Source of the DNA: Polytrichum commune
Taxonomy: Eukaryota > Streptophyta > Polytrichopsida > Polytrichales > Polytrichaceae
Direction: 5' to 3'
NCBI GenBank assembly: GCA_950295325.1
Contig: OX485809.1
Location: 34,596,001-34,660,000 of the forward strand
Length of the DNA stretch: 64,000 bases
Part shown: one piece after another, positions 47,669 to 54,298 of the stretch
How the letters are laid out: each line of letters opens with the position of its first letter
Position numbering within the stretch: the stretch's first letter is position 1
Made by a program: the position numbers and the translations under genes
The notes under the pieces: model-generated
What the model saw: the letters and a program-made list of their open reading frames with translations, nothing else
Told to the model about the DNA's origin: nothing
The model's database searches: none

Positions 47669-49245
47669 TTTGTTTTTACATTCTATCTTTGTTTTCTATA
47701 GGTATTAACATTTGGATTAAATTGCAGGTTTGATTTATAGGTGCAATCAAAGGTTTTAATCGTTTTTGGTTGTCATATCAAAAAAACATATGTAATTTCA
47801 AATAATACAAGTCTAACAAAATGACTAATGGTGTTTCCAAATTAGATTAAAAACAAGAATATGTATGATTTTAGCAATTTGATGAAGGCCATGGGAATAA
47901 GGCATATGTGCATAATAAGATTCTAGCAAGTGCCACATAATCATTGTAAAAATATGTTATTTCATCTATACCTACATCATATCAAACAAGTACACCACCA
48001 ACAACAACTAGATTACAAGAGAAATGTTTTTTAAAAAATCAAGAGAAAATTGAAAATATATTGGTAAAATTGAGTTCTTCTTGTAACATTCCAAGAATCT
48101 ACAAATTTCCTAAAGAGCATGAAAAAAAATTTGTTTACCTTCTAAATAAATTCTAGGTACCGTTCTACTATATCAATCTCACTATTATTATCTCTATTTG
48201 AAATACTGATTTTGTTTTGTATTTTGTATTGCCACACTTTACGCTTGTGAGTGCCATGTGTTAAAACTTACTCAGTTTGAACCTGTGCGAATCCTCCGAA
48301 AATGTTGCTTCTTCTATCCTTTTTTTAGGGCCGCTTTGATGGGGGACTTTCTGCCAATAAATTGTGCATCATTGTGGCTTACAGTGAAGGTCATTTGCTT
48401 TCTCATTTTCTCTCAATTTGAATAATGTTTTATCTATATTATTTATCTCGTCTACAATTGGAGCATCTTTCCTAACTAAAACATTTCTTTTACTTCAACA
48501 ATTTTTTGTTTTTCCACCCCGCAATTCATTGCCATCTCATATTTTTCTTCAATAGGTCTTTTAGCTAATTTATTTTCTACTCCTACAATTCAATCATCTT
48601 TAATACCTGCATTGTCTACAATGCATTAATTCTGCAATACAATATATGTTGTTACAATATATGACATATTTTTCAAAGATTTTTCGGATTGCTTCATTAT
48701 CAACCTTAAACACCGGTTTCATTAAAAGTGCACATAAGCATGTGCACTTTTTTGGGGGATTATTTTTTAATATTTTATTCTCAAATTTTGGAATGATTGC
48801 GCAATAAATTCGTACTTTGATACAAATACTTTCAAATATTATTAGTTTCAAATAATTCCAAGACAAAGCTTATACACTATATGACCATCATATTTATATT
48901 GTGTTTCACTTTTTTAGTAAAAAAATTTAGATTATGAAATAAATCAAAGGAATAAAACACATCCATTTGTGCATAGCTTAAAATACATTATTTATAAACT
49001 TAATGAAAAGTGCGACACATACACCTCACCCTTGGACCAAACACATAAAAATAAATTGAAACTAAGTGACACAACACTTGCTTCACGATAGAAGTAATAA
49101 TATTGAAGTAGATGGTTCCAAAAAACATAACGACATACTTATGTCATTTTATATTTGAAATATCAATATATAATATAACAAACATTTTTCTTTCCAAACT
49201 ATACATATCTATATAATAAAATACAAATATGAATTAAAATAATTT

Positions 49246-49558
49246 TAACCATCCAAAGAGTCTAAACCTAAACCTAGAGAAAACATATTTTTTCGTACAT
49301 CTGGATGTACCAATGCATATTCTTCAAACTCTGTTGATCCAAATATACTAGCATTTACTTCAAGTTTTTCATTATGATTGTGTCCAAAACTTCATTCAAC
49401 ATATTTGTATTTCACAAGATCTTGTGTATAGGCACGAATAACAATTTTTTGAACAATTTCTTTTTTGGACCATGCTTTAGAACACCATACTTTGTTCTCT
49501 ATCCACAGATAAGTAGAAATCTTTAGGAGCACATGCTTATCATCGCGTGTGAGAAACC
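49246..49558 (-). pseudogene. Second coding block of the Harbinger element (ORF1 candidate)
   Basis: About 103 codons, open apart from one internal stop, ending in TAA. Readable parts include HVLLKISTYLWIENKVW, KAWSKKEIVQKIVIRAY, then after the stop EKLEVNASIFGSTEFEEYAL and RKNMFSLGLGLDSLDG. PIF/Harbinger elements normally encode a DNA-binding accessory protein besides the transposase. I cannot see a clear Myb/SANT motif, so the role is inferred from position only. Its upstream exons may begin near 50880, where a possible telo-box and an open minus frame (50466-50831) occur. Confidence 0.45.
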
Positions 49559-49744
49559 ATAATCCTTAAAAGTATTCGAAGATTCAAATGTTTATTCGGG
49601 GGGCCGTGGAAGGCCCACCCCCCTTGTCCTGCATGATATCACTTCCAACCTCACTTCATTCAAGCACACATAAACCATTTTAAAGACATAAAAATATCCT
49701 CTAAACACATTACGTTTTAAGCAATCACAACAAAAATCGATTTT

Positions 49745-50235
49745 CTCACTAAGGATGAAGCATGTGCCTCACCTCTAAGCACTAGCTTAAGGAGAAATTC
49801 AGATTTCTCAAGGAGGGTGAGGCATGTGACTCACCTTCAAAACTTAGAATTTTGTTTCATAAGGGTGAGGCATATGCCTCACCTCTAAGCATAACCTTAG
49901 GGAGAAATTCAGATTTGTCAAAGAGAGTGAGGCATGTGCCTCATCCCGAAAAAAACAAATTCAAAACATAGAATTTTGTTTCATAAGGGTGAGGCATGTG
50001 CGTCATCTCTAAGCACAAGCTTAAGAAAAAATTCAGATTTCTCAAGGAGGGTGAGGGATGTGTCTCACTCCAAAAAAAGAAATTCAAAAAACTTAAATTT
50101 TTGTTTCATAAGGGTGAGACACGTGCCTCACCTCTAAGCACAAGCTTAAGGAGAAATTCATATTTTTCAAGGAGGGTGATGCATGTGCCTCATCCCCAAA
50201 AAAACAAATTCAAAACATTTGCCTCAACTTGAAAG
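49745..50235. repeat. Tandem array 1 with palindromic core
   Basis: Eight variants of the palindrome GGTGAGGCATATGCCTCACC, mostly as GGTGAGGCATGTGCCTCACC, arranged in about four superunits of roughly 120 bp. Each superunit has two alternating linkers: one with CTAAGCACAAGCTTAAGGAG then AAATTCAGATTTCTCAAGGA, the other with AAATTCAAAACATAGAATTT then TGTTTCATAAG. The short open frames across the array are by-products of the repetition. Confidence 0.9.
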
Positions 50236-50880
50236 GAAGAGAAGTGATAGAATATTTTGTAATCAAGAATGAAGAAAAAAAAATTTCAGGAATACGGATG
50301 AATAATACCGATTTTGAAGGGTAAACATCATATATTCCAGAGTTTGAAAAATGAGGATGAGGCATTTATTACGAAAATTTCATAGTATGAACTACATGTA
50401 CTAAGTATACTGTAATCTTTTGTAATAATTAATAAATTGTGTTGTTTTGAAAAACGAAATCAGATTTAGATTTGAATCCCAAAAAATTGAAAAGTTAAAC
50501 AATTACATGAATGGAGTGTTGAATTGAAGTACATTCTGAATAAAATTGAAAATAAGCGTAAAATATGTAAAATACGATGGTATTTGAATATTGAATAAGA
50601 GTTGGTGTTGAAGCGCCTATATAAGTTGAAAGTAGAGTCGAAGATCAGTTGACATGCAAATGAAGACATTAGAGTTATTGGAGAGTGGATTGAACGCAAT
50701 AAGATGATAGAGAGCTGAAGGATCAAAATTTGCAGCAATAGGTTAGACGGTGTAGTACTAGAAAAACTTTTGAACTTTTGAGGAATAATAATTAGAAGAA
50801 GGAGTGAAGAGGTACCATCGGAAAGAAACAAGAAGGTGTTGGAGTAAGAGTTTTAGGAGGAAGAGGCGCCGAAGTAGATC

Positions 50881-50950
50881 CGTGTTGGAGAAGAGCGGCG
50901 GCTAAAAAACTTGACCTAACCCTAAGCGGCGTTTTAGGGTTTAGGGTAAA
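50881..50950 (-). promoter_or_regulatory. Possible promoter with telo-box
   Basis: On the minus strand this reads as two consecutive CCCTAAA repeats, then GCGGCG-type GC-rich sequence and another CCCTAA-like motif, just upstream of a 121-codon open minus frame (50466-50831). Telo-boxes mark many plant promoters (family knowledge). Here it may have driven the element's accessory gene. Confidence 0.35.
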
Positions 50951-51196
50951 CGTTTATTTTTTAATTTTATATGTGTGGACAAACTTTGTATTGGTCTATC
51001 ATGCACATATTTAAGAAGTTACACTTGAATTTTTTTAGTTAGGCCGGTGGCATTATTCTACTCATACCTACTCATTATTTAGTTTTTTGGAAATAAAATA
51101 GAATTTCTATAAATATTTAATCTAATATATATAAATATTATAAATATAACTTCAAATAATATTTATTATAAAAATAATTTTAAAATAATATTTAAA

Positions 51197-51718
51197 GGGG
51201 TGAGGCATATGCCACACCTTGTGGAGCCGTAATTAGTTTTTATTCAAGTTTTAAGGGGGTGGGGCATATGCCTCACCTTGTCAAGCAATAATTAGTTTTT
51301 TTTCAAGTTTTAAGGGGGTGGGGCATATGCCTCACCTTGTCAAGTAGTAATTAGTTTTTTTTCAAGTTTTAAGGGGGTGGGGCATATGCCTCACCTTGTG
51401 AAGCAATAATTAGTTTTTTTTTCAAGTTTTAAGGGGGTGGGGCATATGCCTCACCTTGTGAAGCAGTAATTAGTTTTTTTTCAAGTTTGAAGGGGGTGGA
51501 GCATATGCCTCACCTTGTGAAGCAATAATTAGTTTTTTTTTTCAAGTTTTAAGGGGGTGTGGCATATGCCTCACCTTGTAAAGCAATAATTAGTTTTTTT
51601 CCAAGTTTGAAGGGGGTGGGGCATATACCTCACCTTGTGAAGCCGTAATTGGTTTTCTCAAGATTTATAGGGGTGAGGCATATGCCACACCTTGTGGAGC
51701 CGTAATTGGTTTTTATTT
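51197..51718. repeat. Tandem array 2 with palindromic core
   Basis: Nine units of 58-61 bp. The unit is GGGGGTGGGGCATATGCCTC followed by ACCTTGTGAAGCAATAATTA and a T-rich GTTTTTTTTCAAGTTTTAA linker. The core is the array 1 palindrome with one change (GGTGGGG for GGTGAGG). The first and last units share a different variant (GTGAGGCATATGCCACACC and TGTGGAGCCGTAATT). Confidence 0.92.
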
Positions 51719-51936
51719 TATAATTATACATAACTCCCATAAAATGAATTCCTCATCTTATTGTAGGATGAAGTCTTTTTACAAAAATCATCAAATTATA
51801 ATTTAATTAATGACCAAGAACATTGATCTAAATGTACCCATATTTATAAAAAAATTATTTATAGCCAATACAATTATAATATGATCGTATTTTCATTGAA
51901 ATCTATGTGTTTGCAATAATTTGTTCATGTGCACTT

Positions 51937-52972
51937 TTACATATTGAATTGCATTTTTAACAAAACCGGTGTTCTTAATTTATCCCTCAAAATATCAAAT
52001 GTCTTTTTCATACACATTCTAGCTGAAGATTGGATAAAATTTGCCTCCTTCCTGAAGAATGTAGTTTTTTCACCCTTAAATAGACTGTACATCCAAGGCC
52101 TCACCGAATATGCAACGCCTCCTACAAATTTAAGTGGCTGGAATTTCTCTTTTATACATGCTTGTTCGATCCCTATAATATGAAAACAACCCAATTTAAA
52201 AGACTTCCTACCCATCCAAATTCATAATTCTAAAACCTACAATTTGGTCCGACAATTGCCAGTAAATTGTCAAATGGAATGACTTCCTATAGTTTTAGTC
52301 TTCTCCGCCAACTACCGGAGCTAAAACATGAATATGTGATCCATCTACTGCCCACATAATGGAAGATATATCATGCCACTGCTCGAACCTTATAGTAAAA
52401 ATCCTAAATGCGATTCATTTGGAGTTCGCACAAAAATTGATTACAAAATTTTTTTAACAACTTTACAAAATTCCTTCATTATTTTTTACAATGTATTTCT
52501 ATTGACTCTATACAAGTCTCCTATGCTTTATAATTCATCGTTGTTACCTAACTTATGCAATAACATTGCTATCCTCTCTTGCACCGGCACAATATCCCTA
52601 AAATGTGTATCCTCCTTCAAATACGGGCCTAATTCCTCACACAAAAAATTGAGTGTATTGTATTTCACTTGAGTTCGCTTCTTAAACTCTTTCTCCGTCC
52701 ATGACCCCAACAACAAGCGGTCTACAACTCTCTACATCCGTTCTTGACTTCATATGCTTCTCTCTCTATGCCCCATACTCTCATAAACCAAGCTCAAAAT
52801 TCCAAACTTCTCCCAATCTTCTTGCAAATGCAATGCTTGAATGTCCACAACAACATGCTTCACAAGCATGTACAAAAACATGTATCATCCTAAGAGCAAA
52901 ATAAGTCTCCTCGTCTTTTCCTCCATCGCAACCATGCTTGTTGAAATTCAAGATGAAAACAAACAAAAACAA
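51937..52972 (-). pseudogene. PIF/Harbinger transposase (ALP1-like DDE nuclease), broken
   Basis: DDE nuclease that excises and inserts PIF/Harbinger elements in the nucleus. The minus strand shows the N-terminal helical part (WTEKEFKKRTQVKYNTLNFL, ERIAMLLHKLGNND), the first catalytic block AVDGSHIHVLAPVVGGED followed by NYRKSFHLTIYW, and the C-terminal block YSVRPWMYSLFKGEKTTFF with NFIQSSARMCMKKTFDIL. The first catalytic Asp (VDGSH) is kept. The block that normally reads GDxGY is GGVAY, and the position normally Glu in xERAFGxLK is Lys (MKKTFDIL), so two catalytic positions look lost. There are also in-frame stops (for example after GGED) and frame breaks. Inactive remnant; conserved order of blocks makes the family call firm. 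Confidence 0.85.
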
Positions 52973-53219
52973 GAAGTGAAGCCAAGAGAATGATCAAACT
53001 TGATTTTTTAATTTTTTCAAAACTGCCCTTTTTGTGCATATATCAGAAAAATAAGCACATCCACTTTTTAGTCCACGGTCATTCCTCTGTGTCCACATTC
53101 GGTTTACACCTAGTGAGGGGCCCAAGGCTTTCTAAATTGATTTATTAAGAAGTTGGACCATGGAAAAAGGCCATCTTTCATGGTCCGACTTCATGATCCA
53201 TGGTGTAAACCGGCCCTAA

Positions 53220-54240
53220 GTCTTAGCAATCATGGCAAGGTCCCCATGGAATACAACATCTCCTTTGATATAATGTTCTCCTTTTTTAAATATGACATGT
53301 TCGGTCCCACAAGAAAGTGCCGTATTATCCGAATGTATAAACATTATCCACTTGGTGTCATGTAAGACGCCATCCATTTGAGTTTCATTGACCGCTCATG
53401 CCTTCAAAGTCTACTAGAAAGTGAACTTAGACCGTCTCCAACTTCTCAACTAACCACAGAATTTGTATATCATGGTTCAAGGGCCCTCAAGCTCTAGTGT
53501 AAAGTGGCTCTCAGTAAAGTAAGTCAGTGATTGCAATGGTAGTCAGAGGATTCTAGTGCAGATGTTGATGTGATATCTAAACCGTCCAGATGAAGTCTGA
53601 CTCAAATCGAAACCAAGCATGCAGTTGCATCATCAGGAACGATATTTTGCCAATTTTTCTACTCAACCAACCTTCTCTTCTGAATGTCCCTCAACGAGTG
53701 ACTTAAATAAGTTAGGATTTTATTTATTTATTTTAAATCCAAAAGTACCCCCACTGCCTATAACCATCGTCCATGATTGATGGAGCCTCCTCACGGGTGC
53801 AATGATCATAAATGTAAGCTTACGTAAGGGCACCTGTGACCCTATCGTCATGTTTGCAGAGTCCACTAGACTGAGGTAACTTGTATGCCCTGGTGGTGGC
53901 CGCCACTTCCGACTCCACAAACAATTTTGACTGTTGTATATGGACTTAGGGCTGCTTTACATGGGTCCCAACTCACTTGAGGTCAATCTGGGCAATCTCA
54001 GCCGTTGAGAGCATGCAAGTTGGGACTTACCACTTCACATGGGGTCTCAAGTCCTAAGTCTCAAGTATGACATGGATGTCTACATGGTAACGGTTTTTGA
54101 GGTGACATCTGGGACTTGTGTTGAGAGTTGGGTTGAGCAAAATGTTACATTCAACTTCCAAGAATTGGGTTTGCATAAAATAATCGAGACTTGGGAAAAT
54201 CTGGGCCATGACATGGAAAAAACCATTTTTAATAAATGAT

Positions 54241-54298
<58 letters not shown>

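Follow-up and report, generated by a model that had tools for sequence, protein, structure and literature searches.

Tandem arrays of a 20-bp near-dyad core are a conserved, family-private part of a TIR transposon family that makes 4-bp target site duplications in Polytrichum commune

The target sites of VANC proteins lie in introns and upstream regions and form tandem repeats of one orientation that expand and contract (PMC5735166). The TNPA repeats of En/Spm are cis-determinants of transposition (PMC2613891). Elements of the Mutator superfamily, VANDAL included, make TSDs of 7-12 bp, Sola elements combine TIRs with a 4-bp TSD and, among flowering plants, are described as uncommon, and Ginger elements have TG...CA termini, TSDs of 4-6 bp and a Gypsy-like integrase (PMC10741241). 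Here we describe two arrays of a shared core in the moss Polytrichum commune and compare them with these systems.

The stretch of DNA analysed (the window) is 64,000 nt long, and coordinates without a chromosome name are positions within it. A scan of the window found 16 sites with at most 3 mismatches from GGTGAGGCATATGCCTCACC, all on the + strand, where 0 were expected by chance (100 shuffles). A looser scan found 17 cores of a single orientation in two arrays spaced by about 1.0 kb, eight in array 1 and nine in array 2, in agreement with a first-pass annotation of the sequence that had counted about 17 copies in two arrays about 1 kb apart. The arrays and two single cores are as follows.

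49754..50194, unstranded: array 1, 8 cores, A and B units alternating, ~62 bp (dimer 123-124 bp)
51199..51691, unstranded: array 2, 9 cores, unit of 59-60 bp, linker unlike that of array 1
49864..49883, unstranded: the sole perfectly palindromic core of the window
49011..49030, unstranded: lone degenerate core TGCGACACATACACCTCACC, ~300 bp inside the left end of the element

The cores of array 1 start at 49754, 49816, 49864, 49926, 49988, 50050, 50113 and 50175. The superunit of about 120 bp that had been described for this array is seen as TRF periods of 62/124, but it is really an alternation of A units (~62 bp) and B units (~61 bp), which have the core in common and differ in their linkers. 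Array 2, for which a period of about 60 bp had been given, has a TRF period of 59 and consists of one unit type with a third linker. Across the three unit types, whose linkers are dissimilar, 18-20 of the 20 core letters are in common. The consensus core is GGTGAGGCATGTGCCTCACC in array 1, with a mismatched centre, and GGTGGGGCATATGCCTCACC in array 2, with a mismatch at pair 5/16. A perfect (CT)26 microsatellite was also seen in the window, at 54244-54295.

Both arrays lie inside a complete TIR transposon copy, which emerged when 7.2 kb of sequence including the arrays was searched against the genome.

48709..51973, unstranded: TIR transposon copy, complete, 3265 bp, both arrays inside (genome search, TIRs and TSD checked)
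48709..48732, + strand: left TIR, 24 bp, AACACCGGTTTCATTAAAAGTGCA
51950..51973, - strand: right TIR
48705..48708, unstranded: left TSD, CTTA
51974..51977, unstranded: right TSD, CTTA

This copy is one of a dispersed multicopy family. The TIR consensus AACACCGGTTTCGTTAAAAGTGCA had 76+78 matches in the genome at no more than 3 mismatches (reversed control: 0), suggesting a family of about 75 copies. A 4-bp TSD, varied in sequence, was perfect in 12 of the 13 copies with both ends readable. Paired TIRs gave copy lengths of about 2.2 to 12 kb. No copy shorter than about 2.2 kb was found among those whose TIRs could be paired, and therefore an array-free miniature form was not seen. When the core was sought in other copies, as the first-pass annotation had proposed, both arrays were present in 25 of the 28 genomic places read; of the other three, two were read in part only and the third was a diverged relative (L015). 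The number of cores varies from copy to copy, from about 6 to 40 in array 1 and up to 14 in array 2, with the orientation always the same, and the lone-core sequence TGCGACACATACACCTCACC occurs eight times among the copies read. All full short copies read, which look like deletion derivatives as does the copy at 48709..51973, have retained both arrays. Since 96 of the 100 listed exact array-1 cores lie no more than 13 kb from a TIR of the family, the core motif is private to the family. The arrays are thus a conserved, family-private, non-coding part of a TIR transposon family with a 4-bp TSD.

Three other observations concern the copies themselves. At C3:17877971-17894103, three tandem copies of much of the element follow each other about 5.54 kb apart; this tandem duplication is local and takes in the transposon. 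On C6, four TIRs of the same variant (GACACCGG...) at 5939000, 6129000, 6321823 and 6400795 are separated by 79-193 kb, a pattern suggestive of segmental duplication of DNA that carried one copy. At C3:8844156-8854096 (L034), array 2 is split, with about 6.5 kb from its first to its last units, probably by a nested insertion.

The arrays had been assigned to a decayed Harbinger element. With the transposon sequence taken out of the window, its two flanks meet, and their minus strand can be read, by motif, as a decayed Harbinger-like protein.

48330..48704, - strand: Harbinger-like relic, left part, older than the insertion (joined flanks read by eye)
51978..53223, - strand: Harbinger-like relic, right part, with DGSHIHVLAPVVG and ARMCMKKTFDILRDKLR motifs, identified by motif only

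A Pfam search of the relic gave no confirmation. The Harbinger element of the first-pass annotation is therefore probably real, yet it is the landing site rather than the owner of the arrays. These belong to the separate element at 48709-51973, which inserted with duplication of CTTA, and a Harbinger origin of the arrays is ruled out by the nested family, its other termini and its TSD of 4 bp instead of 3 bp. Part of the right flank (52974-53224) recurs at 70-76% identity inside three family copies (C1:39.09 Mb, C1:41.64 Mb and C3:17.88 Mb) as a second small repeat inserted into the element.

The core had been described as a perfect palindrome. A near-palindromic core of 20 bp does recur, but only one core in the window is perfect, and the perfect form accounts for 13 of some 650 cores across the 28 genomic places that were read, where the common forms are GGTGGGGCATATGCCTCACC (90 times) and GGTGAGGCATGTGCCTCACC (54 times). 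None of the 159 array-2 units has a complementary pair 5/16 (G/T 109, A/A 26, T/T 20, G/A 4), and pairing of cells is less frequent than in shuffled cells. The centre of array 1 is T/G in most units, with pairing close to shuffled. Changes in the arms do not compensate for each other; dyad symmetry is not maintained in this manner, which counts against a binding array. The core is a near-dyad whose strict symmetry is not maintained. Rare and uncompensated symmetry led us to reject a cruciform or strict palindrome as the main reading, and the cruciform that had been suggested earlier is unlikely. Binding by a dimeric or multidomain protein with tolerance for the mismatched core positions is possible.

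The earlier annotation had also stated that the core is kept while the linkers differ. In the test that it had proposed, a comparison of core and linker divergence within array 2, there was no significant difference (mean column identity 0.960 for core vs 0.922 for linker, 159 units, p = 0.35). In array 1, the values for core and linker were 0.913 and 0.905 in A units and 0.879 and 0.920 in B units. Without base matching, core and linker are thus conserved alike, another point against a binding array. The core is G/C-rich, the linkers are A/T-rich, and change is faster at G/C positions. At G/C columns, deviation by unit class was 4.3, 11.7 and 14.5% in the core vs 10.9, 19.5 and 21.8% in the linker. 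Pooled G/C columns deviated at 10.2% in the core vs 17.6% in the linker (p = 0.003, same direction in three of three classes; p-values for G/C columns are rough because columns were taken as independent), so that the base-matched core changes at about 0.6 times the linker rate. The gap persisted without CG/CHG columns (10.2 vs 17.0%, p = 0.003), and methylation-driven linker decay was therefore rejected as its whole cause.

Comparison between relatives gave a similarly divided result. In the more diverged L015 (69-79% identity), the consensus core is intact at 20/20 positions and the homologous linkers are identical at 27/44 and 28/42 (61-67%). The linkers of A and B units each resemble L015 linkers; direct comparison among the linkers of A, B and array 2 detected no homology (p 0.10-0.26). 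Between the main family and the subfamily at C1:54.85 Mb, array-1 linkers agree at 40/42 and 41/41 positions and cores at 20/20 and 19/20. Since these linkers are conserved like the cores, whole units rather than cores alone are kept or exchanged. The earlier statement thus holds for the base-matched comparison and for L015, and fails in the unmatched test of array 2 and between subfamilies. A core-specific constraint, modest and resting in part on the single relative L015, is likely.

These data also bear on whether the arrays are neutral minisatellites, in which a near-palindromic core promotes slippage or unequal exchange and serves as a seed of duplication without a function. The wide variation in core number, the homogenised units, the similar unadjusted rates of core and linker and the equally well kept linkers between subfamilies would all fit such an origin. 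We nevertheless consider it improbable: with bases matched, the core exceeds the linkers in conservation in each of the three unit classes, the core of L015 is intact despite the decay of its linkers, and both arrays are present in every full short copy read. A further alternative is a host factor. The core centre CATRTG is an E-box (CANNTG), at which a host bHLH-type protein might drive the element promoter; CATGTG or CATATG stands at the centre of 535 tallied cores, and the centre columns are among the best kept in array 2. However, the core is 20 bp long with outer arms that are conserved too, and it is nearly absent outside the family, unlike typical host sites, which makes a host factor very improbable.

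The arrangement of the full element is seen in four long copies of 9-12 kb. In these, 3-6 kb separate the internal array region from each end: the arrays are about 5.3 kb and 4.2 kb from the ends in C4:51836197-51848213, and about 4.6 kb and 4.1 kb in C6:41938811-41949818. In all four, the distance from the array 2 marker to the first exon of a gene (gene 1) is 1-2.7 kb, and another 4.5-6 kb lie between array 2 and the right end; in three long copies that stretch is C4:51836197-51841484, C6:41938811-41943376 and C7:2071626-2077540. Two of the four showed array 1, which presumably lies between the exon and array 2 in the other two. The arrays are therefore internal in the full element and come near an end only in deletion derivatives, unlike the subterminal arrays with which they had been compared. 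This distance of several kb from either end and the single degenerate core at the left end count against the idea that an element protein binds the cores during transposition, comparable to TNPA at the subterminal repeats of En/Spm. Such end arrays would agree with the retention of arrays in deletion derivatives of differing size, with the roughly 280 bp between array 2 and the right end in short copies, with the lone core about 300 bp from the left end and with the role of the TNPA repeats noted above, but on balance we regard them as rather unlikely.

The copy in the window retains a remnant of gene 1, and the region between the arrays was assigned a tentative role.

49248..49655, - strand: gene 1 remnant, 138 codons, 3 stops (genome protein search, L046)
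50236..51185, - strand: inter-array region, proposed gene 1 promoter and leader (consensus of 25 places)

The remnant consists of two exon parts fused by a deletion: its 138-residue reading matches the long copies at two places about 3 kb apart, in open frames that are much longer. One long copy (L046, 3.7 kb read) contains exons of a protein of about 1,100 aa with several stops or frameshifts. There, the last two array cores and a good splice acceptor (TGTGTGCTTGTAG/G) immediately precede the opening of gene 1, so that array 1 ends directly before the acceptor; in the long copies generally, the array region is directly upstream of gene 1. Gene 1 had no relative in Pfam, NCBIfam, PHROGs or the PDB sequences, its open frames in L046 had no match to DUF1985 or DUF287, and structure prediction for two pieces gave no usable model (pLDDT 33 and 30). 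Distant relatives in the genome show 27-29% identity. One of 28% identity, at C2:44398989-44399957 (L047 in part), has an open frame of 882 residues with 0 stops; the 187 residues read match no family, Pfam included, and it is a candidate host gene or active relative. The inter-array region is proposed from its sequence as the promoter and leader of gene 1, with a CT-rich leader and a telo-box-like AAACCCTAA on the minus strand at about 50920-50946. Of the 29 places where the AAACCCTAA motif was detected, none is in a long copy, which counts against a promoter.

Because the core shows base-matched conservation, is common to three unit types and is intact in L015, our best guess from these sequence patterns is that it serves as a protein-binding site, and that the arrays are regulatory rather than end-binding transposase arrays. 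We take them as sites of an element protein because the private motif, its orientation, variable number, placement and retention resemble VANC targets. We would give an even chance to their being putative family-private protein-binding arrays around the control region of the element that work like VANC or TnpA sites. The protein, its binding and its effect are what we infer here, and the steps may be as follows. The 20-bp near-dyad would be bound by a dimeric or multidomain protein that the element itself most likely encodes. With same-orientation cores spaced at about 60 bp, many molecules would be loaded around the control region, and the loaded protein may keep the element expressed or counter its silencing. 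Unequal exchange or slippage would make the arrays grow and shrink, amplifying sites and homogenising linkers. Short copies may retain arrays because the protein would still be needed in trans.

By its termini and its 4-bp TSD, the family falls outside Harbinger, CACTA, Mutator/VANDAL and Ginger in their usual definitions (PMC10741241). PIF/Harbinger elements have a 3-bp TSD (TAA/TTA), and the 4-bp, varied TSDs differ from it; the element sits inside a Harbinger-like relic but has different termini, and no DDE_Tnp_4 match fell in the long copies among the best 150 of 990 candidates scored. Like En/Spm and other CACTA elements with TNPA subterminal repeats, the family keeps a repeated motif in deletion derivatives of a large transposon. 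Unlike them, its termini are AACACCGG and not CACTA/CACTG, its TSD has 4 bp instead of 3 bp, and its arrays are internal in long copies rather than subterminal at both ends; Transposase_21 (TNP2) had no match in the long copies among the best 150 of 650 candidates scored. The MULE transposase domain gave 142 matches, none in the long copies (best 150 of 271 candidates scored). The AA...TT termini differ from those of Ginger. The 4-bp TSD and a TIR size within the reported range are shared with Sola (PMC10741241), the sole listed plant superfamily compatible with the TSD and TIRs tested, and the family is left unclassified. Because a 4-bp TSD fits mainly Sola among plant superfamilies and the large protein matches no Pfam family, naming the transposase would be useful in itself.

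The closest likeness is to the VANC arrays of Arabidopsis VANDAL elements (Mutator superfamily), which also consist of a short private motif in same-orientation tandem in non-coding DNA, with units gained and lost fast and with placement upstream of genes and in introns (PMC5735166, PMC10398659). The moss arrays have the same character, a family-private tandem motif of one orientation and variable number in non-coding DNA. They differ from VANDAL in their 24-bp TIRs and a TSD of 4 bp, in a 20-bp near-dyad in place of the 9-bp VANC motif YAGTATTAY, and in that VANC proteins are marked by DUF1985/DUF287, neither of which gene 1 matches. In VANC-type arrays, the bound protein is encoded by the element and its binding removes methylation. 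It is conceivable, though doubtful, that the family represents a second, independently evolved system of sequence-specific anti-silencing or self-activation outside Mutator, in which a 4-bp-TSD family uses a large protein of unknown fold that binds a 20-bp near-dyad amplified into two arrays flanking its own control region. If the arrays do recruit an element protein, tandem sites near an element's own promoter would be a recurrent anti-silencing strategy and not one of VANDAL only.
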